From IMG/VR virus record IMGVR_UViG_3300048588_000220, positions 1 through 26,757 of that record: DNA of 26,757 nucleotides. The stretch is one strand, 5' to 3'. The notes under the pieces are model-generated. The model had not been told where the DNA came from. It was given only the letters and a program-made list of their open reading frames with translations, and ran no database searches. The position numbers and the translations under genes were made by a program. Source of the stretch: a virus. This document shows positions 2,287-26,757 of the stretch, piece by piece. Positions within the stretch are counted from its first letter, which is position 1; each line of letters begins with the position of its first letter.

Positions 2287-2858
2287 TGAACGGAATCATG
2301 AGACGCCCCGGCCTGCTGTGGATGTTACTCGGAGCTGGCTGCTGTGGATGTTTGCAGGCTCCGCCGGAACCTGAACTGCTGCCTGAGCCGGATCCAGCCT
2401 TTACCATGATTGAAGATCTGCCGGACTTCGACCAAACCGCCCAGAAAAATACAATCGTCCCGCTCATGGCGAAGGATGACACGCCGGCCGTTTCACAGAC
2501 GACCATGAAGCCAGTCACAACCGAGCAACGTCGCAGCGGCTTCACGGGAGCGATCGTCTACACGAAATCCGACTGCCCGCCGTGCCGCAATCTCGTGACT
2601 GATCTGCAGTATCTCGCTGCCAATCACGGTTGGACGCTTTCGGAGCGCGAACTGTCGACGATCACGCCCACGGCGGCGATTGACTGGGTCATCGTGCACG
2701 GTCAAAACGCGGAAGCGTTTCCGATGGTCGAGTTCTATCGCGACGGCGAATTCATCGGCGAATCGCGTGGCTATTCGCTCGCCCGCAATTTCGCCGACAG
2801 ACGTGAACCGCTCATGAACCTTATCCGATCGCATCCCCGCTACACGGCGGCCCGCTGA
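2286..2858 (+). CDS. lipoprotein with thioredoxin-like CPPC domain
   Basis: The N terminus is a short basic-hydrophobic signal (RRPGLLWMLLGAGC) ending in a Cys-rich stretch that fits a lipobox, with cleavage before Cys19 or a neighbour. A Pro/Glu-rich linker runs to about residue 85. The C-terminal half looks like a thioredoxin or glutaredoxin fold: strand GAIVYTKSD, then Cys97-Pro-Pro-Cys100, helix, and a late AFPMVEFYRDGEFIGESRGY segment that resembles the cis-Pro strand and following hairpin. It should be anchored on the outside of a membrane and act in thiol-disulfide exchange, with unknown substrate. It may instead bind a metal. The start at 2286 overlaps the previous stop; an in-frame ATG at 2298 is an alternative. 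It sits directly before the packaging genes, which is unusual. Confidence 0.75.
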   Translation: MNGIMRRPGLLWMLLGAGCCGCLQAPPEPELLPEPDPAFTMIEDLPDFDQTAQKNTIVPLMAKDDTPAVSQTTMKPVTTEQRRSGFTGAIVYTKSDCPPCRNLVTDLQYLAANHGWTLSERELSTITPTAAIDWVIVHGQNAEAFPMVEFYRDGEFIGESRGYSLARNFADRREPLMNLIRSHPRYTAAR

Positions 2859-3178
2859 TGCAATTCCAGCGGCGGGCACAGTTCCGGCAGGTGCGAAACG
2901 AGCCTGCCCGCGAAAACTCCAGCGCTCGAGGTTACGGCCGACGGTGGCAGAAGTATTCTCAAGCTCGCCTGTTCGCCAACCCGCTTTGCGTTGTCTGCGG
3001 GCGAGCTGCTCAGGCAACGGACCATATCCAGCCGGTCACCGGTCCGATGGATCGGCTGTTCTGGGATCCGAAGAATCATCAAAGTCTCTGCTGGAACTGT
3101 CACAGCCGAAAGACTGCGACGGAAACGAACGGGGAGGCGCTGAAGAATGGCAGCACGCGGCCGAAAACGATCGATTGA
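2858..3178 (+). CDS. HNH endonuclease
   Basis: A compact HNH nuclease of 106 aa. The zinc-binding pair Cys44-x-x-Cys47 is followed by Asp55-His56 (TDHIQPV), Asn73-His74 (PKNHQSL), then Cys78-x-x-Cys81-His82. This is the order of the Cys-containing HNH family, in which DH supplies the general base. Such nucleases next to terminase genes in HK97-type phages are known to aid DNA packaging by cutting together with the terminase, and the position just upstream of the small terminase fits that role. The gene starts on the stop of the lipoprotein gene and overlaps the next gene by 32 bases in another frame. Confidence 0.88.
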   Translation: MQFQRRAQFRQVRNEPARENSSARGYGRRWQKYSQARLFANPLCVVCGRAAQATDHIQPVTGPMDRLFWDPKNHQSLCWNCHSRKTATETNGEALKNGSTRPKTID

Positions 3179-3712: not shown

Positions 3713-5386
3713 GTGGACGTTCTGAGAACGCTCAACGATTACTGCGATGATGTTATCAGCGGTCGCAGAGTCACAGGCCAGTTGCAACGCGCGGCTGTGG
3801 TACGGTTCCAGAAAGATCTGAAGCGATCGCAAGAGCCAGGCTGTAAGTTTTATTTCGACGAACGCAAAGCGGCGATTGCGATCAAGTTTATCGGGCTGCT
3901 GCAGCACACAACCGGCGACTTCGCAAAGAAGCCGTTTCTGTTAGAACCGTGGCAGGCGTTTATCATTGGAAATCTGTTTGGCTGGAGATGGAAAAATACC
4001 GGTCTCCGCAGATTCAGAACCGCTCATATCGAAATCGGGAGAAAAAACGGAAAGACTGCACTGGCAGCGGCAATCGCTCTGCTGTGCCTGATCATGGACG
4101 GCGAAGGGCGGCCGGAAGTTTACGCGGTCGCCACCAAACGAGCACAGTCGAAGCTGAGCTGGCAGGAAGCGGACCGATTCCGAAGCGGCAACGCCTGGCT
4201 CTCGGAACAGATCAGATCCACGCCCTCAAAGTACATCATGACGGGGCCGGACGAATCCGTTTTCGTCGCTCTCGGTGGCGACGGCGGCGGCGATGACGGA
4301 CTGAACCCGAGCTGCGTCATCTTCGACGAACTGCATGAATGGAAACTGGAAGGACACCTGAAGCTCTGGGACAAAATGCGAACGGGTTCCAGCACTCGCC
4401 CGCATCCTTTGTTCATCACGATCACCACCGCAGGCGACACGAAAAGTTATCTCTGGAAGTCTGAAAGGAAATACGCTGAAGCCGTTGCACGCGGCGAACA
4501 GATCGACGACACGCTGTTCAGTTTCGTCTGCTGTCTCGACCCAGACGACGATATTTTCGACCCCGACAACTGGGTGAAGGGAAACCCGGGACTTGACACG
4601 ATCAAGAAACGAAAGGACATCGAAGAACTTGCCACAAAGGCACGCATTGACCCGACGGCAGAACGACAACTCAAGCGGTATCACTGCAACCTGATGGTTG
4701 AGCCAACGGCTCAGGGAATCAGCGCAGCCGCATGGTCGAAGGGAGCAAAACCGCTTCCGGATTTGACAGGACACATCTGTTTCGGAGCTGTCGACATCGG
4801 AACCAGAGACGACCTGGCGGCGTTCTGGTTGACGTTCCCGCCGCTGAATCTTTTGACCGGAATTTATTACACACTGGGCTGGGCGTTCAGTCCGCTGAAC
4901 GGCGTCCGGGACGTCACACAAGGCGAGTGGCAAAAGTGGCGAGACACCGGGCAACTGATCACCACGCCCGGTAATGAAACCAGCTTTGAGGACATTCACA
5001 AAATCATTGATCAGGCTCGAAAGAAGTACAAACTGAAGGCGATCGCATTGGACCCACACAACGCCACTCAGTTTGGTCAGGATCTGGAACGCAAAGGAAT
5101 TGAGGTTGTCGGCCATGGTCAAAAAGGCATTCACTACAATGAGCCGCTTCGATCGCTCAAATCCGCTTGCAATGAGGGGCGACTGATACACGGAGACAAC
5201 GGCCTGCTGACGTGGGCGATTGAAAATATGGTGGTCAGTCTTCAGGGCGGACTGATGAGACCGGCGAAGGAACACAGCAGAGACAAGATTGACCCTGCCG
5301 TTGCGATGATCATGAGTTATTCAATCGCCACGCTGGGCACTGGTAAGAAACAAGACAAGGGAGAGGCGCGAGTCAGATACTTATGA
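3713..5386 (+). CDS. terminase large subunit
   Basis: This is the packaging motor and nuclease, 557 aa, near the usual family length. A Walker A variant (GRKNGKT, residues 109-115) and Walker B with catalytic Glu (VIFDE, 202-206) mark the N-terminal ATPase, and ITITTAG at about 235-241 fits the coupling motif. The C-terminal RNase H-like nuclease has Asp361 in AVDIG, Asp447 in ALDPHN and Asp527 in KIDPAVA as likely metal ligands. The start is GTG at 3713, preceded by a weak GAGAT. The gene begins 8 bases after the small terminase and overlaps the portal gene by 4 bases. The overall pattern is the HK97/YmfN-like terminase type, usually linked to cos-type ends, though I cannot see a cos site. 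Confidence 0.95.
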   Translation: MDVLRTLNDYCDDVISGRRVTGQLQRAAVVRFQKDLKRSQEPGCKFYFDERKAAIAIKFIGLLQHTTGDFAKKPFLLEPWQAFIIGNLFGWRWKNTGLRRFRTAHIEIGRKNGKTALAAAIALLCLIMDGEGRPEVYAVATKRAQSKLSWQEADRFRSGNAWLSEQIRSTPSKYIMTGPDESVFVALGGDGGGDDGLNPSCVIFDELHEWKLEGHLKLWDKMRTGSSTRPHPLFITITTAGDTKSYLWKSERKYAEAVARGEQIDDTLFSFVCCLDPDDDIFDPDNWVKGNPGLDTIKKRKDIEELATKARIDPTAERQLKRYHCNLMVEPTAQGISAAAWSKGAKPLPDLTGHICFGAVDIGTRDDLAAFWLTFPPLNLLTGIYYTLGWAFSPLNGVRDVTQGEWQKWRDTGQLITTPGNETSFEDIHKIIDQARKKYKLKAIALDPHNATQFGQDLERKGIEVVGHGQKGIHYNEPLRSLKSACNEGRLIHGDNGLLTWAIENMVVSLQGGLMRPAKEHSRDKIDPAVAMIMSYSIATLGTGKKQDKGEARVRYL

Positions 5387-7098
5387 TCACAAACACACTT
5401 CGCAGAATGTTCGATTCCACGAAAAGCATCGCCCGGCGTTCGCTGGCGTCGATCTTTGGAATTACTGAAGGCGTTCTGTCTGCAATCGGACGCGTCGGCA
5501 TTCGCGGCGGGCTTGTCCTGGCAGCTTCCGGCGTCATGGTGTCCGCTGAATCGGCAATGCTGGTCAGCGCCTACAAACGCGGCGTTGAACTGCTGGCGCA
5601 CCACGTCGCGAAAACTCCGTACTGCGTGAAACGCGGTTGCGAGATGGACACCAGCCATCCGGCAAGCCCGGTCATCCGTTGGTGGGCTCGTCATCACCAA
5701 ATGAGCGCGTTTGAGTTTCGCCGGACCATGATGGTGATCGCTCTGACGCGTGGAAATTCTTACGCGTACATCGTCCGACGTGCCGGCGTCGTCACAGAAC
5801 TGCTGTTGCTGGACAGTCAGCAGGTTCAACCGGAAGTCATTCGCGGCAAACTGGTGTATCGAGTCTCCGGCCGTGACAAGTTCGTCAGTCCCTCGGACAT
5901 GATGCACATCAAGGGACTCGGCTTCAACGGTTACGAGGGACTGGACCCGATCCGATACTACGCAAAGGAAGTTCTGGGGCTTGCGATCGCCACCCAGAAC
6001 TACGCCGCGAAGTATTACGAAAACGGAGGCACGCCCAGCGCTTACCTGAAATCCGAAGTCCCTCTGACGGATGATCAATTCAACCGGCTCAAGGGCGAGG
6101 CCGGACCGCTGAAGCGATCCGTTGACAATCCGCATGAACTCCCAATCCTCGAACAAACCGATATCAAAAGCGTCGGCCTGACTGCTGAGCAAACTCAGCT
6201 TCTTGGCGCTCGCAAAGATATCATCCTGGACATCGCCAATTTGCTCGGCATTCCGCCGCACAAATTGGGACTGGCGATTTCCACCAGTTACGGTTCACTC
6301 GAAGAAGAGAACGACGCGTTTCGTGATGACGCCCTTGACCCGTGGCTGGTTCAGTTCGAAATGGAATACCGCAAGCTGCTGACCGAAGACGAACAGCAGG
6401 GTGAGACTCACACGGTTGCGGCTGATCGTTCGGACTTCTCGCGAATGAAGTCAGCCGATCAGGCTCAATACCTGAAAGACATGACCGGCGGCTCTGCTGT
6501 GATGACGGTGAACGAAGCCCGCGCACGTCTCGGACTTCCACCGGTCCAAGGTGGCGACGTTCTGATGAGACCGCTCAACATGGCAGCCGCGGGCGAAGAT
6601 CCTGAAGAACCTGCGGACGATTCCCAGGCCTCCGAAACCGAGCAAACGGACACCGAGGCCTCTGACGCTGAAATCGGAGACGTTGCCGACGGTGAAGAAT
6701 CCGACGTCGAAACTGAAACTGACGACGCGGCCGAATCACGATCACGAATTCACGCGGCCAAACTGCGGGCGCTCGAGGACGTCTTCAACCGCATGACAAA
6801 GCGACTGACCACGGCGGCGGGCAAGATCAAGCGGCCGGAACAGTTGGTGGAATTCCGCAGCCGGCTGGACACGGATCATTTGCAGGTCATCACGGCCGCA
6901 TTGTCTCCGATCGTGCCATTGTGCGGAGGCACCGAGGCCGGACCGTTCGCCCTGGAACTCGTCACAGCATTCCGCAGCCGTCTCGATTCACTGGAAAACG
7001 CTCCGGACCTTCACGCGGCGGTTGAATCACTCGGGGAAACCTTTGTCCAGGACGCTGGCCAGTTCGCCAGCGAAGCACTCAGAAAGATGGTGGCATGA
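5383..7098 (+). CDS. portal protein, HK97 type
   Basis: The portal forms the dodecameric ring at the head vertex through which DNA passes. Family hallmarks include AYKRGVELLAHHVAKTPYCV, the RGNSYAYIVR strand, MMHIKGLGFNGYEGLDPI, the GGTPSAYLKS strand and LLGIPPHKLGL. The body (about residues 45-400) matches the family. It is extended by an acidic linker (about 403-447, rich in Asp, Glu, Ser and Thr) and a helical C-terminal region of about 120 residues, so at 571 aa it is longer than typical HK97 portals. An N-terminal hydrophobic stretch is also present. It starts on the terminase stop and overlaps the next gene by 4 bases. Confidence 0.93.
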   Translation: MITNTLRRMFDSTKSIARRSLASIFGITEGVLSAIGRVGIRGGLVLAASGVMVSAESAMLVSAYKRGVELLAHHVAKTPYCVKRGCEMDTSHPASPVIRWWARHHQMSAFEFRRTMMVIALTRGNSYAYIVRRAGVVTELLLLDSQQVQPEVIRGKLVYRVSGRDKFVSPSDMMHIKGLGFNGYEGLDPIRYYAKEVLGLAIATQNYAAKYYENGGTPSAYLKSEVPLTDDQFNRLKGEAGPLKRSVDNPHELPILEQTDIKSVGLTAEQTQLLGARKDIILDIANLLGIPPHKLGLAISTSYGSLEEENDAFRDDALDPWLVQFEMEYRKLLTEDEQQGETHTVAADRSDFSRMKSADQAQYLKDMTGGSAVMTVNEARARLGLPPVQGGDVLMRPLNMAAAGEDPEEPADDSQASETEQTDTEASDAEIGDVADGEESDVETETDDAAESRSRIHAAKLRALEDVFNRMTKRLTTAAGKIKRPEQLVEFRSRLDTDHLQVITAALSPIVPLCGGTEAGPFALELVTAFRSRLDSLENAPDLHAAVESLGETFVQDAGQFASEALRKMVA

Positions 7099-7402: not shown

Positions 7403-8089
7403 ATGAAATCACTGAATTACAGATACAACCCTTCCGACGTCGCAGCTCGGAGCGTTGAAGGTTCCGCCGAACTTCCGCCGATCACCGGATTGGCGGCCGT
7501 TTATTTTGACCCTGCGAACATGGACGGCACGGAATACCGCATCCGGCACGATCTGGTCGAACGCATTCCGGCCGGTCTTCTGGATGAACACGTTGGCGAA
7601 GATCGGGAAATTCTCGGACTGCGCGACCATGATGAAAACCTGTTTCTTGGGCGCCGAAGCTCGAAGACTCTGCGAACGCAGATCACATCGCGCGGGCTCG
7701 AGTACGAGATTCAAACGCCGAACACGCAGGAAGGCCGCGACACGCTCGAGCTCATTCACAGACGCGACATTTCCGGCAGCTCGTTTTCCATGCTCCGGGC
7801 GAAGGCTCGATTGAGCTACGAAAAGCGAAGTTCCGGATCTGTCTACATCCGGACCATCACGCGGATGGATGCCATCCATGATCTGGGGCCGGTGCTTTAT
7901 CCGGCATACACCGGCACGTCTGCCAACATCGGCGCCCGATCCTGCGGACTGACAAACCTGAAACGCTCCGCCGGTCCGCCCGCGGAAATCGCAGAACTCG
8001 AAGCCGAACTTCGCGACTTCATCAATTCGAACTGGCTGCAGTCTGAGGCGGAACTTCGCCTGCGTCAGTTGGAGATTGCGCGGGCATGA
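7403..8089 (+). CDS. prohead maturation protease, HK97 family (U35/S78-like)
   Basis: This protease removes scaffold segments from the capsid protein during head maturation. The family motifs are present: His76 in GLRDHDENLFLGR, and the serine motif DISGSSFSM (Ser127 most likely the nucleophile, Ser125 the alternative) after an RRD turn. The late DLGPVLYPAY matches the conserved substrate-strand segment near the end of the domain. The 228-aa length is usual. The gene has its own AGAGG site and is separated from the upstream gene by a 74-bp gap containing a hairpin. It precedes the major capsid gene, as expected. A C-terminal helical tail (about 190-228) lies outside the catalytic core. Confidence 0.9.
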   Translation: MKSLNYRYNPSDVAARSVEGSAELPPITGLAAVYFDPANMDGTEYRIRHDLVERIPAGLLDEHVGEDREILGLRDHDENLFLGRRSSKTLRTQITSRGLEYEIQTPNTQEGRDTLELIHRRDISGSSFSMLRAKARLSYEKRSSGSVYIRTITRMDAIHDLGPVLYPAYTGTSANIGARSCGLTNLKRSAGPPAEIAELEAELRDFINSNWLQSEAELRLRQLEIARA

Positions 8090-8436
8090 TTTTGCGAATC
8101 TCAAACCGGGAGTATTCGGTTTCCTTAAAAATCTTCGGACGCCTCTTGCATCCGTTTTGTGAATCGCGCGAGAACCCTGACTTACGCAGACCGATTGCAG
8201 TGCTCGCGAGTCAGGCCCTGTCCTGACACCGCAAACAGCAATCGACGTAGACCCCGAAAACAGCAGTCACCCGCGCTGCTGAGTGAACCCACCGGGCTCC
8301 AATGCACGGCAGGGCGATCGTAATGGCTTCGGAGTTACGACGCAAACGCGTTGTTCGGAAGGAGAGCCGAACAGCCAACAGAATCCGCCGTGCTCAATCG
8401 CGAGCACACTTTTTTACCACGGAAGGTATTGCAGAC
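8090..8436 (+). promoter_or_regulatory. capsid gene leader, rich in inverted repeats
   Basis: This 347-bp gap is the longest non-coding stretch in the operon. It holds copy 2 of the 18-bp repeat (8158-8175). Next, CCTGACT at 8176-8182 can pair with AGTCAGG at 8209-8215. Part of that right arm (8210-8215) can instead pair with CCTGAC at 8222-8227, so the two hairpins exclude each other. CAGCAG (8261-8266) and CTGCTG (8276-8281) form another 6-bp stem. An in-frame ATG at 8302 would extend the capsid by 45 basic residues, but no ribosome-binding site supports it. The gap probably carries a promoter and a structured 5' leader for the capsid message. Confidence 0.45.
8158..8175 (+). repeat. 18-bp exact direct repeat, copy 2
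   Basis: Identical to 368-385 and in the same orientation, in the leader of the major capsid gene. The match ends cleanly on both sides: GAA precedes copy 1 and TTT precedes this copy, and GCG follows copy 1 while CCT follows here. See copy 1 for the interpretation as a shared promoter or operator element. Confidence 0.5.
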
Positions 8437-9858
8437 ATGGTCAACCCGACAAAGCAGGCCAAAGAACGCTGGATGGAATCGCTCAAGGAACTCGAAAAGC
8501 GACACGCAGCGTTTGCGTCTGACACCACCAACGAACAGGCGAAAGTTGCGTTCGACGAACAGAACAAAAAGGTGGTCGAACTCAAAGCCGAGTACGCTCG
8601 ATTCGCCGACTACGAAGCCCGCATTGCTGAAGGAAAGCTGGACGATTCCAGCAACCCGGACTTCAAGACCGAAGAAGAATTGGCCGGAATGACGGACGTC
8701 GAAAGACGATCGGACAAGGTCAATCCGCTGCTGAATCCAGACGCCAAAGGCTACCGTCTGAGCCGCGTCATTGACGCCATGGCTCTGGGACGCCAGTTGT
8801 CGGGCGTCGAAGCTGAAGTGTCCGGCGAACTGCAGAAACGCTGCACCGCTCTGGGCCGCGAAAACCGAACCAACGCCCTGTCGATTCCGCTCACTCTGCG
8901 GGCTCAGGTGGGTCAGTTCGAACAGTTCGGCCGCGAGCTCGGACTGTCTCCGAAGGAAATGCGAGCGTTGAACGCAGCCACCACCGGTGACACCGCGATT
9001 CCGACGATCCTTTCCGGCAGCATCATCGAAATGCTGCGAAACAAGGTGATTCTGAATCAGGCCGGGGCCACAATCCTGTCCGGTATCACCGGCGTGTTCG
9101 ACATTCCGAAACAGGACGCTCAGCCGTCCGTGTCGATCGGTGGCGAATCGCTTAACCCCAACGAATCGTCCGCGCAGATCTCGGCAAAGGTCACGTTCAC
9201 GCCGAAAACCATCGCCGGAAAGTCTCAGGTGACCCGTCGATTCATGGCTCAGGCAATGGCCAGCTTGGACGCGGAAAACTTCCTGCGAATGATGCTCGTC
9301 GAACAGATCCGCCTCGGTATCGACCTCGAAGGCTTGACCGGCCCGGGATCGTCAAACCGTTGTACCGGTCTTTTGGAGAATGACGACGTCACGACAATCG
9401 CACTCGGCACCAACGGCGGAGCTCCGACGTTCGCCAAGTTGGTTGCCATGGAAACCGCTGTCGAAGATCTGAACGCTTCAACCGACGGAAACACGATGGC
9501 TTACATCACGAACGCTCGCGGCAAGGGCACGCTGAAGACCACTCTGAAAGCCAGCTCCGCCGGTTCGACGATGCTTTGGGAAAACGACGAAATCAACGGC
9601 TACCGCGCGTTGATGACGAATCAGATTCCAAAGGATTACACGAAGGGAACGACGGAAGATTCCTGTTCTGGAATCGTGTTCGGCGACTTCGCACATCTCG
9701 TCATTGCTCTGTGGACTGGTCTCGACATCCTTGTCGACCCGTACACGAACGGCGGAGCCGGAGCGACGAACATTTACGCTCATCAGGACTTCGACATTCA
9801 AGTCCGACGCGCGGAAGCGTTCAGTAAGATCGTGGACATGGTCACCACAGCGTTCTGA
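8437..9858 (+). CDS. major capsid protein, HK97 fold
   Basis: The main head shell subunit, 473 aa. The ATG at 8437 follows GGAAGG at 8421-8426. The first ~100 residues are charged and helical (KQAKERWMESLKELEKRHAA), typical of the delta/scaffold domain that the upstream protease removes. The rest matches the HK97 fold: ATTGDTAIPTILSGSIIEML at the start of the mature part, the E-loop region, KVTFTPKTIAGKSQVTRRFM in the spine helix and P domain, and the C-terminal YAHQDFDIQVRRAEAFSKIV strand and turn. A 13-bp hairpin follows the stop. Codon use is strongly G/C-ending, in keeping with high expression. Confidence 0.95.
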   Translation: MVNPTKQAKERWMESLKELEKRHAAFASDTTNEQAKVAFDEQNKKVVELKAEYARFADYEARIAEGKLDDSSNPDFKTEEELAGMTDVERRSDKVNPLLNPDAKGYRLSRVIDAMALGRQLSGVEAEVSGELQKRCTALGRENRTNALSIPLTLRAQVGQFEQFGRELGLSPKEMRALNAATTGDTAIPTILSGSIIEMLRNKVILNQAGATILSGITGVFDIPKQDAQPSVSIGGESLNPNESSAQISAKVTFTPKTIAGKSQVTRRFMAQAMASLDAENFLRMMLVEQIRLGIDLEGLTGPGSSNRCTGLLENDDVTTIALGTNGGAPTFAKLVAMETAVEDLNASTDGNTMAYITNARGKGTLKTTLKASSAGSTMLWENDEINGYRALMTNQIPKDYTKGTTEDSCSGIVFGDFAHLVIALWTGLDILVDPYTNGGAGATNIYAHQDFDIQVRRAEAFSKIVDMVTTAF

Positions 9859-13798: not shown

Positions 13799-14106
13799 AA
13801 CGGTTTCTGTTTCGACTCTGTCTGCATCTCGGTTATCCGCATCCGGATTACCTCGAAAAGTGGCTCAATCCTCGCCAGTTGCGTGAATGGCTCGCATGGT
13901 CAGAGATTGAGCCCTTTGGCGATCATCTCGCCGGACTCTTGAACCAGAACTCGATTTTCTGGCTTCGCTCCGCATGGCTCGGTGAACACTCTGGAAAGTT
14001 CGAAGACTTCCGTTTGCTTGACGACGAACCCGTCGATTCAAACACGGAAGGCGCCAGACTGATGAGCGAAATTCGCTCCGGCATTTTGAACGGGACGTTT
14101 GTCTAA
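13780..14106 (+). CDS. tail assembly chaperone T extension, made by -1 frameshift
   Basis: This frame has no convincing start of its own: the first ATG with a plausible context (13879) would remove conserved sequence. It is read by slipping from the gpG-like gene. The protein has LCLHLGYPHPDYLEKWLNPR and QLREWLAWSEIEPFGD, the typical GT pattern (LG-P-P--L---L---QL-EW-A---IEPFG). This pattern brings tail tube subunits to the tape measure-chaperone complex in lambda-like systems. An RLMSEIRSGILNGTFV end follows. The stop overlaps the start of the tape measure gene. About 108 residues are added to the first 125 of the upstream protein. Confidence 0.85.
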   Translation: MRADRVKRFLFRLCLHLGYPHPDYLEKWLNPRQLREWLAWSEIEPFGDHLAGLLNQNSIFWLRSAWLGEHSGKFEDFRLLDDEPVDSNTEGARLMSEIRSGILNGTFV

Positions 14107-17087
14107 TGGCTGGCTCGCTCGAAGATCTTAACTTCGCCGTCAACGCGCATGTTCGCGATGCGATGGATGATTTGAAGAAACTCGGGCGCCAGCTTGACGA
14201 AATCCTGAAGACGACCGACAACGTTGATTCCTCTTTCCGCGCCATGGGTGCAAGCATCGGTCTGCCCGCTAAGCAGGTTGAACTGTTGCTGCTGAGAATT
14301 CAGCCACTTGTCAACACGCTGGCAAAAGCCGACAAGCAAGCGCACGCGCTCGAAGAATCATTCACCCGCAAGCTGATGCAAAAAGCTCTGGAAGATCACA
14401 ACCGAAAGGTGATCACCCTGGCCGATGGCACTCAACGCGCTCGCTATGAAATGATTCGGCTTGCCGATGCTTCGCAGCAACTCCGCATTCCCACGCAGGC
14501 ACCACGCGCACCCGCTCAGCAGCAAGCCAGCGGCGGCGTGAACTTTGTGCGAATCACCACGGCGGCGGCTCAGATGGGAATGCTCGCTCGTGTATCGGCC
14601 ACGATGGCGAACGTGTCTAAGTCTGTCACCAGTGTGACGGAAGTTTCAAAAATCGCAGCGTCCTCAATGGATCGTTTCCGAATGGGTTTGGCGGCTCCGA
14701 AGGTCAACCCGGAAATGAACGTGATCAAAAGCGGAATCGACAAAGTCGGCGATGCTGCAGCGAACGGAATCAACAAGGTTCGTGAGATCGCAGACGCGGT
14801 TGCCAGCGACATTCCAGGAACCGTCGGTTCCGCTGTCGGAGCGATGGGCAAAGTGAATGTCGAACTCGACAAGACATCGGCGACGGTATCGAAGCACGTC
14901 AGCAAGATGCAGAGTTCTTCAAAGGGTCTGACGTTTCTCGGCAAGGTGTTTCCATTCCTCAAAACGCAAATCAATTCCGTTCAGGAACCTTTTGACAAGC
15001 TACGTTCAAAAGCCGAACAGGCCGCGAACAAACTCGATCAGGCGAACGCGGAAGTTTCAGCGACAGCGAACAAACTTCGGAACGCTCGGTTCGTCATGGA
15101 TGGAACGTTCCAGAGTCTCGGCGGCTCGGCTGATATGTTCGCACGGGCCGCGTTTCATGCGAACCTGCCAGTTCGATTGCTCAAACGCGAATGGGAAGGG
15201 GCCACGCGAGTCGTCCGAGCTGCGACGCACGTCTGGAACTTCGCGACACATCCGATTCACAAGGCCACGCTCGCCATCGGACACGCGCGGGCACAATACA
15301 ACGTGTTCCGTTCGTCGCTGCCACAACTGACCGGCGGTCTCCAACTGGGGACGCGATTGTTTCGGGCGTTCGCCCACGCAACGTACTTCACTGGACCGGC
15401 GGCAACCTTGGCGACGAAGGCAATCACGGGAGTAGCCAAAGGTCTTTGGGCTCTGACAAGCCCAGCGCGTGGAGCAACTGCCAGCATCGCCAAACTGACC
15501 GGCGTACAAAACACGTTCATTGGCAAGGCTCTTGGAATGTCCAAAGCAGGGAACGATGCAGCGGCATCACTTGCCAAGATGGACGCGGCGAGTGTCAAGG
15601 CATCGAAGAACGTTGGAGCATTCGGCAGCAAAGCCGGAATGATGAAGACAGCCGCGGCCGGGATGCTGGCGGGCATCGTCGCACTCGGAACGTCGACAGC
15701 TGTTGCCAGTGAAAAGAACGCTGCCATCTTCGGCACCATGCTTCACGACATGGAACAAGGCGCGGCAACAGTCAGATCGATTCAGGGAACGAAGGCGGCG
15801 AAGTTCTTTGACAATCAGGAACTGCTGGACTCTGGACGATTGCTCTACAAGGCCAACGTTAGCGCAGCCGATCTGGCTGGCAAAACGGATCAGTTCGCAA
15901 AAATCGCTGTCGGGGCGTCCGTCGATATTGGAATGCTCGCAGACCGTTACATGCAAGGATTCCAGCAAGGCTCTTTCGGCCTCGGTCAGATTAACGACAT
16001 GGCTCGCGAAGGCGTGGCCATCTACTCCGGTTTGACGGCGGCAACCGGTCTGAGCGGCGATGCACTTCAGAAGATGATTGCCGACGGCAAAATCGGTATG
16101 AAGGAAATGGACGCAGCGCTCGCAAGCCTGACCGAAGGTAACGGCATTTATGCCGGTTCTTTGGATGCCATGGCGACCACGACCGCCGGGAAGATGGCCA
16201 CGATCAAGAACAATGTGTCTCAGGCACTCGGGCAAGTCATGGGCGTGGCGTTGGAAATGCTCGCACCATTCGGCACAGCAATCGTGATGATGTCCGAACA
16301 GCTCTCCGGAGCGTTCACGGCGTTTCGCGGTCCGATCATTTACGGAGCAACGGCCGTTGCGTGGTTTTTCGGCAACTTCGTGAATATCGGGAAGTTCGCC
16401 CTGACTTCATTCGCCCTGTTCTTCGTGAGTGCCTTCAACGACTTTGCGTACTTCTTTACGACGAAGCTGCCAGCGTATCTCGGTTGGTTCAGTAACAACT
16501 GGACGCAGGTTTTCTACGACGCGGCAAACATCGTCGGAACAGTGTTTAAGAACATGGCCAAAAACATTTGGACCGTGATGAAGCAGGTTTGGGCATTCAT
16601 CAAATCGGGCGGACGGTCAGAACTGTCGTTTGCTTTTGTACCGTTGCTCGATGGCTTCAAAAAGACCGTTGCGGAAATTCCAAACATTCCGGAACGGGCG
16701 ATGACCCAATTGGAAAAAAATCTGACTCTGCAAACTCAGCAGATCGGTGGCGATCTTGCCAACAACTTCGATTCGATGCTTGCTGAAGCGCAGGCTAAAG
16801 TCAGCGCAGCAGCTCCAGTTCTTTCCGACAAAGCTGGAGGCGGAGCAACCGGCTCTGAAACCGGATCGACAGCAGCGGCCAGCGCAGCACGCAAGGCAGC
16901 CGAGAATCGTGCCATCGGCGTCCGCAGTGCTGAAGGGCAAAGCGTTATCGCACAGATGTCAAAGATCTTCGGCAAGAACGACAAAGAGAAGAAAGCGCAG
17001 GACGCTCAAATCCAACAGGCCAAAGACATCAAAGACATTGCGCGTGAAGTCCGACGCGGTAAACCTCTGATCGCGAAGGCGTTTTGA
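14106..17087 (+). CDS. tape measure protein
   Basis: This 993-aa protein sets tail length and is ejected with the DNA. The N-terminal ~500 residues are helical with repeated Ala, Lys and Gln (SLEDLNFAVNAHVRDAMDDL at the start). A hydrophobic stretch lies near 516-535 (AAGMLAGIVALGTSTAVA). The conserved tape-measure domain lies at about 535-720 (FGTMLHDMEQG, DQFAKIAVGASVDIGMLADR, FGLGQINDMAREGVAIYSGL, TTTAGKMATIKNNVSQALGQ). A strongly hydrophobic region at about 740-785 may insert in the host membrane. The C terminus is Ala/Lys-rich and helical. At about 0.15 nm per residue the tail would be near 150 nm long. Confidence 0.93.
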   Translation: MAGSLEDLNFAVNAHVRDAMDDLKKLGRQLDEILKTTDNVDSSFRAMGASIGLPAKQVELLLLRIQPLVNTLAKADKQAHALEESFTRKLMQKALEDHNRKVITLADGTQRARYEMIRLADASQQLRIPTQAPRAPAQQQASGGVNFVRITTAAAQMGMLARVSATMANVSKSVTSVTEVSKIAASSMDRFRMGLAAPKVNPEMNVIKSGIDKVGDAAANGINKVREIADAVASDIPGTVGSAVGAMGKVNVELDKTSATVSKHVSKMQSSSKGLTFLGKVFPFLKTQINSVQEPFDKLRSKAEQAANKLDQANAEVSATANKLRNARFVMDGTFQSLGGSADMFARAAFHANLPVRLLKREWEGATRVVRAATHVWNFATHPIHKATLAIGHARAQYNVFRSSLPQLTGGLQLGTRLFRAFAHATYFTGPAATLATKAITGVAKGLWALTSPARGATASIAKLTGVQNTFIGKALGMSKAGNDAAASLAKMDAASVKASKNVGAFGSKAGMMKTAAAGMLAGIVALGTSTAVASEKNAAIFGTMLHDMEQGAATVRSIQGTKAAKFFDNQELLDSGRLLYKANVSAADLAGKTDQFAKIAVGASVDIGMLADRYMQGFQQGSFGLGQINDMAREGVAIYSGLTAATGLSGDALQKMIADGKIGMKEMDAALASLTEGNGIYAGSLDAMATTTAGKMATIKNNVSQALGQVMGVALEMLAPFGTAIVMMSEQLSGAFTAFRGPIIYGATAVAWFFGNFVNIGKFALTSFALFFVSAFNDFAYFFTTKLPAYLGWFSNNWTQVFYDAANIVGTVFKNMAKNIWTVMKQVWAFIKSGGRSELSFAFVPLLDGFKKTVAEIPNIPERAMTQLEKNLTLQTQQIGGDLANNFDSMLAEAQAKVSAAAPVLSDKAGGGATGSETGSTAAASAARKAAENRAIGVRSAEGQSVIAQMSKIFGKNDKEKKAQDAQIQQAKDIKDIAREVRRGKPLIAKAF

Positions 17088-23768: not shown

Positions 23769-24700
23769 TGACGCCAAGCTTCGCAAAGCCACGGTCTGAG
23801 TTGCCGTGGCTGCCCTATCAGGAACAAGATCGAGTGATTATTAACGCTCACAATTTTGGCGGATCTTGGACGCCAGCACAGATCAGCACTTATCAATGGG
23901 TGCGAGCTGCTGATTCGTCCACGCTCTTTGACGCAATATCAGGCGGATCTGCGGTCGGTACAGATGGTGGAGTCGCACGGCTTGAAGACAAAAGCGGCAA
24001 CGGTCGGCATTACACTCAGTCGGCCAGCGGGGACCGACCTCTGCGAAAAATCGGCGTTCAGAATGGTCGTGACGTGCTACGTTTCAACGGCACAAGCGAT
24101 CGCATGAGCGTGCCGTCAAGCACTGGAATGTTCAACTTTTTACACTCCAGTCAAGGTGCGATTTTCTTTGCGGGTCGCGTTGGAAATTCATCGAATCCCA
24201 ATGCGCTGCTGCCGATCATGGGCAATGGTGGGGGATTTTCTGGCAGTCGCATCGGGATCACATTCCTTCTCGACGACCGCGTTTCGGTACCTGCAAATAA
24301 TAGACTTAGCCTAAGCGCTTTTAATAACAATGTAGGTGCAGCAGGTATCGGCACAGACAACACGCTGACACCAAACACCTTTCAGCAGTTTGCGACGATC
24401 CATGACATCGCCAACGGCACCACGTCCGCAAAGCTAACGCTGTACGTGAATGGCATCAACACCAGTTCGACTGTCACCAGCTCGACTGCAGGCACGTCCT
24501 CCAATGCGTCGAATAACTGGTTTTTGGGTGACTACGCGACGGGCAGCTTTTTTCTCGCTGGAGATGTCGGTGAGATTATTATTCTGAATTCAATTCCAAC
24601 AACGGACACGCGGCAGAAGATCGAGGGTTATCTTGCTCACCAGTGGGGCACGAACGGATTGCTCGACGGCTCACATCCTTACAAATCGGTGGCACCATGA
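23768..24700 (+). CDS. LamG/concanavalin-like lectin-domain protein, 310 aa
   Basis: The central and C-terminal regions have the pattern of a LamG-like jelly roll: VARLEDKSGNGRHYTQSASG, RDVLRFNGTSDRMSVPSSTG, QGAIFFAGRV, a middle strand KLTLYVNGINTSS, NWFLGDYATGSFFLAGDVGE, and the terminal IIILNSIPTTDTRQKIEGYL followed by AHQWG. The last element is typical of Laminin_G_3-like domains in bacterial and phage surface proteins. It probably binds a carbohydrate or other ligand at the host surface and may be the receptor-binding protein. It starts at ATG 23768, overlapping the previous stop, and its own stop overlaps the next start. Confidence 0.78.
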   Translation: MTPSFAKPRSELPWLPYQEQDRVIINAHNFGGSWTPAQISTYQWVRAADSSTLFDAISGGSAVGTDGGVARLEDKSGNGRHYTQSASGDRPLRKIGVQNGRDVLRFNGTSDRMSVPSSTGMFNFLHSSQGAIFFAGRVGNSSNPNALLPIMGNGGGFSGSRIGITFLLDDRVSVPANNRLSLSAFNNNVGAAGIGTDNTLTPNTFQQFATIHDIANGTTSAKLTLYVNGINTSSTVTSSTAGTSSNASNNWFLGDYATGSFFLAGDVGEIIILNSIPTTDTRQKIEGYLAHQWGTNGLLDGSHPYKSVAP

Positions 24701-25644
24701 CGACACACTCAGCAGTTCTCGCCGCACCATCAGGGCTTACGCTGACGGCGAAATTATTCACGCTGGCAGACCCTGATACGGTCTACAAAACAGCAGGCTC
24801 TGTGACGTATCGCACGAATGCCACAGCACAAGCGGTTGCGTCTTTTGCCGACGTCGCTGCTGGCGATTACACGATGATTTATTTCAGCGGATCGCGTGCC
24901 GTCGCGATCGGATATCGGACGTTCTCTGGCACTGACGGAGAGACTGCGACGGAGACACCAGTAGCAGTGGAACTGGACTCCTCTGTTACCGCTCAGCTGG
25001 ATGCGATCGAGGATAACACTGATGCTTCTGTAGGGTATCTCACGACGCTCGTAAATCGCATTACGTCGAACGCAGCCACCGGGCTCGCCAATCTGTTCGC
25101 GATGATTACCGGCTCCGGAGCATCCGCGAAGTTTACAGAACTTGCTCTCGAAAACGCTCCGGCCGGTGGAGCTGGCGAGGGCGGCGGTCTTACTGAAGCG
25201 CAAGACCAAACATTGACGGGCATTGCCGGAGCGGTGGCACGGCTGCGCGGTGCTGTGCTGAATTGGGTCGGGAATGTCGGGCCGGGCGGAGTTCTGGAGC
25301 TCACTATCGGAGACGATCACGAATCCGTCATCGAAAACGATTTGCCGATCCGAGTGAAAGACGCAGGCGGTCTGTTGTTCGATCGTCTGACGGCCGCCGG
25401 CACGACTCTTCAATGGTCCGCTGGCCAAGATACCACCGGCGGAATGATCACGGGGACCGTCGGCACACCGACACATGACGACGAAACTGAGATTACCACG
25501 ATCATCGTTCAGGTGCCGAACTGCAGCGCGACGGGAAACATTCTGGCGCCGTACAAGTGGCAACTGCAACGGACCGTCGGAGGAAAACGCGCGAGAGAAC
25601 TCAAAGGCACGCTGAATCTGATTCCGGATATGATCGGCGATTAA
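24697..25644 (+). CDS. tail protein with beta N-terminus and BppU-like C-terminal domain
   Basis: A 315-aa protein that starts on the stop of the LamG gene. The N-terminal ~90 residues look like a beta-sandwich (LTLTAKLFTLADPDTVYKTA, then VAAGDYTMIYFSGSRAVAIG). A helical, Ala/Gly-rich linker follows (TAQLDAIEDNTDASVGYLTT at about 105-125, and a GGAGEGGGL loop). The C-terminal ~110 residues (GVLELTIGDDHESVIENDLP, then IRVKDAGG, TEITTIIVQVP, APYKWQLQRTVGGKRARELK) resemble the Ig-like domain of phage upper-baseplate (BppU-type) proteins, which link fibres to the tail. That resemblance is from memory of the pattern only. It is the last gene of the rightward block. Confidence 0.6.
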   Translation: MTTHSAVLAAPSGLTLTAKLFTLADPDTVYKTAGSVTYRTNATAQAVASFADVAAGDYTMIYFSGSRAVAIGYRTFSGTDGETATETPVAVELDSSVTAQLDAIEDNTDASVGYLTTLVNRITSNAATGLANLFAMITGSGASAKFTELALENAPAGGAGEGGGLTEAQDQTLTGIAGAVARLRGAVLNWVGNVGPGGVLELTIGDDHESVIENDLPIRVKDAGGLLFDRLTAAGTTLQWSAGQDTTGGMITGTVGTPTHDDETEITTIIVQVPNCSATGNILAPYKWQLQRTVGGKRARELKGTLNLIPDMIGD

Positions 25645-25708: not shown

Positions 25709-26716
25709 TCATGTCAGCAGCGTTTGCAACGGACTGATCGTTGCTGCGACTGATGACGTTGTCACATGCAGATAAATCTGAGTCGTGGCCAAATCTTTGT
25801 GCCCAAGCAGATCCTGAACGACTCTGATGTCTGTACCTGCTTGCAAAAGATGGGTTGCGAACGAATGCCGGAACGTGTGTGGGCTGATTCGTTTTGTGAG
25901 TTTCGCTGTCTCAGCGGCCTTAGAAATCTGCCGTCCGATGTTGCTTTCATCCTGATGATGCCTGCCCAGTCTTCCAGTATCCGGACAAGTGCTCAGGCTG
26001 TTTGACGCAAACAAAAAATACCATGCAAGTTGTTTCGCTGCTTTCGGTGATTTTCGTTCGAACGCTCTGGGTAAAGCGACACGAGCAATTCCATTCCTGG
26101 CGTCGGAAGTGTGCAGCCGTCGAACATGAGCAATTTGATTCTGCAAAGGCTCGATGAGAACGTTGGGAAGCGGTACAAGCCGACCAGCCTTTCCTTTTGT
26201 GTCCCAGAGCTGAATTCGCCCCAGATTGAAATCAATGTCTTTAACTCGCAACGTCAGGCACTCCTTCAACCGGAGCCCGCAACCGTACAACAACTGAGCC
26301 TGAAGCAGATGCACACCACGCAGATGTTCCAGCACTTTTTTAACTTCGTCGCGACTCATAACGACAGGAAGATACAACGACTTGCGAGCTCGGACTGCGT
26401 CAACGTTTCCGAGCGGAGACTTCAGAACGTAACGGTAAAGAAACAACAAGGCTGCAAGAGCCTGATTTTGAGTCGATGCCGACACTTTCCCGACGTTTGC
26501 CAACTTACTCAAAAACCGTTCTACAGCGTCCGTCGGATTATGAATCTCCTCAGGCCGAACCCACTCGCCGCGGTTTTCGATTCGGACGAATTTCAAAAAC
26601 TCCACAACATGCGACCAGTACGCATGAAAAGTCGAATCCGCACAATTCCGAGCGCGAACAGCCGCGCGAAAGTCATCAACGAGCATCTGATTTTCCCTGT
26701 AAAAATCAGCATCCAT
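25709..26716 (-). CDS. intI: integron-type tyrosine recombinase (IntI family)
   Basis: The 335-aa protein has an N-terminal core-binding domain (RNCADSTFHAYWSHVVEFLK, then VSASTQNQALAALLFLYRYV) and a catalytic domain with Arg149 in GCGLRLKECLTL, Lys174, His280-x-x-Arg283 in SPHTFRHSFATHLL, His306 in DLLGHKD and Tyr315 in TTQIYLHV. What separates it from phage XerD-like integrases is the extra segment between about 205 and 258 (VALPRAFERKSPKA, WYFLFASNSLS, GRLGRHHQDES), the motif specific to integron integrases. It should recombine attI and attC sites. It is convergent with the phage genes. ATG 26716 has no good ribosome-binding site, and only 41 bp upstream are visible. Confidence 0.9.
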   Translation of the reverse strand: MDADFYRENQMLVDDFRAAVRARNCADSTFHAYWSHVVEFLKFVRIENRGEWVRPEEIHNPTDAVERFLSKLANVGKVSASTQNQALAALLFLYRYVLKSPLGNVDAVRARKSLYLPVVMSRDEVKKVLEHLRGVHLLQAQLLYGCGLRLKECLTLRVKDIDFNLGRIQLWDTKGKAGRLVPLPNVLIEPLQNQIAHVRRLHTSDARNGIARVALPRAFERKSPKAAKQLAWYFLFASNSLSTCPDTGRLGRHHQDESNIGRQISKAAETAKLTKRISPHTFRHSFATHLLQAGTDIRVVQDLLGHKDLATTQIYLHVTTSSVAATISPLQTLLT

Positions 26717-26757
26717 GCCGGTTGTTTATTCTGCGCCCAGCAGAATCATCGTTAGGT
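26717..26757 (-). promoter_or_regulatory. candidate attI region with GTTRRRY core and inverted repeat
   Basis: On the side of the integrase start where an integron carries attI, GTTAGGT lies at 26751-26757 and fits the GTTRRRY core at which cassettes insert. Between it and the start codon, ATTCTGC (26728-26734) and GCAGAAT (26740-26746) form a perfect 7-bp inverted repeat around GCCCA. The integrase promoter and any operator must also lie in or beyond this stretch. The window stops at the last base of the core, so the neighbouring half of the site and any cassettes are not visible. Confidence 0.55.

Follow-up and report, generated by a model that had tools for sequence, protein, structure and literature searches.

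The virus record IMGVR_UViG_3300048588_000220, analysed over its whole length of 26,757 bases and called the window below, is probably the structural half of a tailed phage that carries its own integron, with the contig cut at a variable attI site. The integron integrase (IntI), its phage context, an attI-like core, a dyad and the exact end of the record were seen directly in the window, and its relatives showed cassettes that vary, attC sites, and integrons flanked on either side by phage genes. In the arrangement that we propose, intI would close the tail module and be transcribed back towards it, with attI just upstream and the core as the last seven bases. The IntI would insert cassettes into attI by joining their attC sites to it at G^TTAGGT, and viruses of one population would carry differing cassettes beside an identical attI; reads would then split at the core, the assembler would stop there, and cassettes, followed by the replication module, would lie beyond position 26757. 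For the phage of the window itself, we infer both the recombination at the core and the cassettes beyond 26757.

By its predicted gene content (terminase large subunit (TerL), portal, capsid, tape measure and tail), the window is a tailed-phage fragment (Table 1). The ORF list and profile searches gave a structural module of the ordinary tailed-phage type, all in one direction and closed at the right end of the window by intI, one convergent gene. The nearest phage by structural genes (L008) was without IntI. A search of viral contigs returned no relatives of the capsid protein, and in the host searches nothing above 36% identity to the TerL was found, either in 392 genomes from the phylum of a Planctomycetaceae MAG or in 387 genomes from the phylum of a Verrucomicrobia MAG. 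The record starts with about 65 C residues, together with one A and one G (positions 1-66); this stretch most likely arose as an artefact of sequencing or assembly, meaning that the left end of the window is not natural.

Table 1. Coordinates of the features in the window
Feature	Position	Strand	Basis or remark
HNH endonuclease	2858..3178	+	PF01844
Terminase large subunit	3713..5386	+	PF20441, PF03354
Portal protein, HK97	5383..7098	+	PF04860, TIGR01537
Prohead protease (S78)	7403..8089	+	PF04586
Major capsid protein, HK97 type	8302..9858	+	PF05065, TIGR01554
Tape measure protein	14106..17087	+	TIGR02675
Last structural-module ORF	24643..25644	+	Stop 64 bp from intI stop, convergent with intI
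intI, integron-type tyrosine recombinase	25709..26716	-	TIGR02249, PDB 2a3v, invariant residues
Perfect 7-bp inverted repeat, ATTCTGC-GCCCA-GCAGAAT	26728..26746		Candidate part of attI
GAAT-N4-GTTAGGT	26743..26757	+	Spacing as in GAATTNNN-GTTRGGY of phage attI sites; weak by itself
GTTAGGT, candidate attI core	26751..26757	+	Sequence, position, orientation; last window bases

The window IntI matched TIGR02249, the curated integron integrase model, with 366.8 bits against a cut-off of 265, and the IntI of PDB 2a3v with 5.9e-66 over nearly the whole length. The latter match covered the IntI-specific insertion, which is present in the window protein as AFERKSPKAAKQLAW...RHH. The catalytic residues are R149, K174, H280, R283, H306 and Y315, and in an alignment of five phage IntIs the catalytic residues, the Tyr included, were invariant. 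Judged on these features, the protein is a genuine integron integrase of the IntI family. An ATG at 26686 (residue 11), with AGGGAA just upstream, may be the true start of intI, which would give a leader of 71 bp instead of 41 bp; the TIGR02249 match starts at residue 13. No other recombinase was found in the ORF list of the window, the genome being incomplete.

Relatives of the window IntI were found with the alignment of the five phage IntIs, and the search yielded at least 80 viral loci, by which measure IntI is common in environmental phages. In the 50 records that were scanned, a tyrosine recombinase was present in all, and part of this set may be misclassified or may have other portals, because the PF04860 portal was found in only 13 of them. 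In a tree of 125 rows, for which the chromosomal IntI rows were picked by similarity to the window IntI, the latter fell among 34 virus-only rows (support 97/84). It formed a long branch, with identity of at most 47-48% to relatives among the matches listed, so that the tree places it among the viral rows without a firm sister. In two members of a 37-row virus-only IntI set (L158 and L174), an attC-like site was present near an attI core.

Upstream of intI, the window reads GGTTGTTT-ATTCTGC-GCCCA-GCAGAAT-CATC-GTTAGGT, after which the record ends. The original prediction stated that GTTAGGT fits GTTRRRY, lies on the correct side of intI and is preceded by a perfect 7-bp inverted repeat, and all of this can be read directly from the sequence. 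The heptamer sits 34 bp upstream of intI and is directed away from it, as in integrons, with the predicted crossover between G and TT; the repeat consists of a left arm (26728-26734), a spacer (26735-26739) and a right arm (26740-26746), and is separated from the heptamer by CATC (26747-26750). GTTRRRY alone is uninformative, since the window had 34 such sites against 38.6 expected, without enrichment. A correctly oriented GTTRRRY ending at the last base has a chance of about 34/53,500 = 6e-4 per position, and 0.6% of shuffles produced a perfect dyad, its arms 7 bases or longer, within the 45 bases before the core, both figures being post hoc. An attI profile of the best-studied phage clade, for which eight sites were used, gave the window 3.5 bits, which was not significant. 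No attC was found in the window; relaxed hits were dismissed as lying inside coding sequence and having non-consensus cores (such as GTTTGTC and GTTCTTT). The terminal 24-mer of the window had no match in viral contigs, nor was any contig continuing past 26757 found.

In many relatives, the region upstream of intI had the arrangement GTTA...dyad...GAATTNNN-GTTRGGY in the attI orientation, with the dyad centred 18 nt before the attI core. Over six pairs in 27 relatives, 60% of the pairings were Watson-Crick, in comparison to 44% with shuffled partners; none of 2,000 shuffles reached the observed pairing, in a calculation that ignored the kinship of the sequences, and neighbouring dyad centres gave 12-41%. 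The pairs changed on both sides (GC/CG and GC/AT). Since the place of the dyad is kept while its sequence covaries in these 27 relatives, the dyad would seem to serve attI through its structure or as paired arms, and not as a fixed repressor operator. The repeat of the window had been proposed as an integrase or repressor binding site, and on the evidence of the relatives it is likelier to be part of attI, the repressor role being the one that the covariation disfavours. Its centre lies about 13.5 nt before the core, against 18 nt in the relatives, and is thus about 4 nt out of register.

The proposal that cassette variation at the crossover made the contig stop was supported via the relatives, in which near-identical contigs part at GTT, other records end at the core, and the DNA directly past the core holds attC sites. 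L147 and L151, which are contigs of the same phage, were 99.93% identical over the 4,084 bp that start at the attI core and take in intI; this identity ended inside the core, after GTT (...GAATTTAAGTT, followed by AGCC in L147 and GTGC in L151). Beyond the core, L147 had three attC sites and L151 had one convincing site and one weak relaxed hit, the convincing sites being of one family (GCATAAC...GTTGTGC or GTTATGC). The cassettes after the core differed between the two contigs, and past the last convincing attC they had a cassette in common again. DNA identity also ended shortly beyond the core G in five related pairs (L114/L126, L138/L147, L132/L145, L117/L145 and L100/L101), the distances being 2 bases in three pairs and 3 and 5 bases in the other two, and L119 and L121 likewise diverged at the attI core. 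Of the original suggestion of a cassette array just outside the window, the intI, the attI-like position and orientation and the reason for the stop were supported, the last by analogy with the relatives; no attC or cassette of the window's own phage came to light. The cassettes after the attI core of L121, L132, L147 and L151 shared a GTCAAA start (GTTGTGC-GTCAAA), and ten candidate cassette ORFs were given no function by a Pfam search.

Contigs broken at the core were found as well. Two records of the same portal-bearing phage from two metagenomes (L124 and L125), 100% identical over 11 kb, start at GTTAGG and GTTAGGC, respectively, and a record of another locus (L160) starts at GTT; these ends are not gene-boundary trims. 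The far end of the L125 record held an attC of 60 bp, in which the canonical extra base lay on the side where it belongs, and then 31 more bases.

Several of the viral loci had an integron inside a phage genome. In G035 and G027, a phage primase/helicase followed the array on the attI side, and the opposite side held a portal and a phage integrase, together with tail and tape-measure genes in G035. Read in reverse, G035 runs TerL, portal, tape measure, tail, integrase, ParB-like gene, intI, attI, cassettes and primase, and the order in the window (TerL, portal, capsid, tape measure, tail, intI, attI, stop) matches that of the relatives up to attI. The phage genes of the window are on the intI 3' side only, whereas those of G035 and G027 are on both sides.

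These genomes bear on an alternative that we regard as unlikely, in which the phage uses IntI as its own integrase for lysogeny and the site is an attP that recombines with attC or attI of a host integron, so that the contig ends where the flanks of free and integrated forms differ. No other recombinase was found in the window, as this alternative would have it, but the window is incomplete and the absence of a second integrase is therefore weak evidence. In G020, an attC on one side and an attI core on the other would fit a prophage in a cassette array, and a prophage with attC sites at its flanks has been reported from V. anguillarum (PMC9892861). However, a second phage-type integrase is present near intI in G020 (serine, directly after intI) and in G027 and G035 (tyrosine), so IntI is not the sole integrase there, which favours a cassette platform over a lysogeny enzyme; moreover, the array lies within the phage genome in G027 and G035. 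Further integrases were also found elsewhere in G003, a record of 37,967 bases (L192 and L193 together, and the same contig as the Desulfobulbaceae MAG locus L058). It has intI inside and two other tyrosine recombinases, three in all, and because of its 127-bp end repeat it is probably a circular phage genome. A second tyrosine recombinase about 2-5 kb 3' of intI was also noticed in G016, G025-G029, G032, G036 and G039, and this intI-int neighbourhood recurs in many records.

It is still less probable that a chromosomal integron of the host is the source of intI and that a prophage ends by chance beside the intI 3' end. Prophages often end after tail genes, and three IMG/VR records (G043, G047 and G015) have the stop codon of intI as their exact end, as though cut there. 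This is opposed by the position of the window IntI with the 34 virus-only rows despite the similarity-chosen chromosomal set (with the caveat of the long branch), by the phage genes flanking the integron on both sides in G035 and G027, and by intI inside the probably circular genome of G003. Contig ends can be accidental, which counts against reading this end as a stop at attI; that GTTAGGT ends the record by an assembly accident, without a working attI, is nevertheless very improbable, as the seven-base motif common in the window, the weak profile score and the other assembly damage in the record (the poly-C start) have to be set against the chance of about 6e-4 for such an oriented end, beside a true intI and a rare dyad, and against the same end in L124 and L125, and nearly in L160.

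The reading of the window as part of a phage with its own integron can be compared with known systems. Integrons in phage genomes were described by Qi et al. 2023 for the Vibrio phages Va_90-11-286_p16 and Va_PF430-3_p42, P1 L-II and the Shewanella prophage M16-3 (PMC9892861), where intI and attI/attC likewise lie within a temperate phage genome. Most of those integrons are pieces of chromosomal or class 1 integrons already known, whereas the window IntI is at most 47-48% identical among the matches listed and groups with viral rows only; in the two relatives examined in full, the integron lies between the integrase/tail modules and the replication module. Sedentary chromosomal integrons (PDB 2a3v) have in common with the phage-borne ones the IntI fold with the additional domain, a divergent attI (a candidate site in the window), the GTTRRRY core and, in the window's relatives, the attC cassettes; the phage-carried ones differ in their short or variable arrays, and in the window no array was seen. 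The virus Rctr41k (KX853513) and the IMG/VR phages L002 and L003 are also tailed phages encoding IntI-type recombinases, but no attC was found near their intI, and in Rctr41k and L003 intI is in an operon, overlapping or abutting the preceding gene. The same setting within a forward operon was noticed for L002, L003, L018 (Rctr41k), L106 and L122, where there was no room for attI and no attC nearby.

Neither IntI lineages confined to viruses nor a turnover of cassettes among near-identical phages turned up in the open literature, which we covered incompletely, and IntI clades made up of viruses only, whose integrons occupy similar places in the genome, look new. Integrons are regarded as bacterial gene-capture platforms, and on our analysis these phages appear to gather genes as bacterial integrons do. 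We would tentatively suggest, short of an even chance, that tailed phages own long-standing integron lineages, as indicated by virus-only IntI clades, a similar position and arrays turning over in near-identical viruses. If true, this would mean a dedicated gene-capture device in phages instead of host integrons picked up occasionally, and such phages could carry, swap and spread cassettes among hosts, a route across species barriers. Exact breakpoints in public viral contigs, i.e. contigs ending at G^TT upstream of intI, would be its simple signature.

We also noticed a 730-bp block, 83% identical between two different phages and at differing distances from intI (-865..-136 relative to intI in L004 and -1854..-1125 in L114). 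An ORF in it, identified by eye, resembles a PAPS reductase, and in L004 the block has its edge near the possible attI core.
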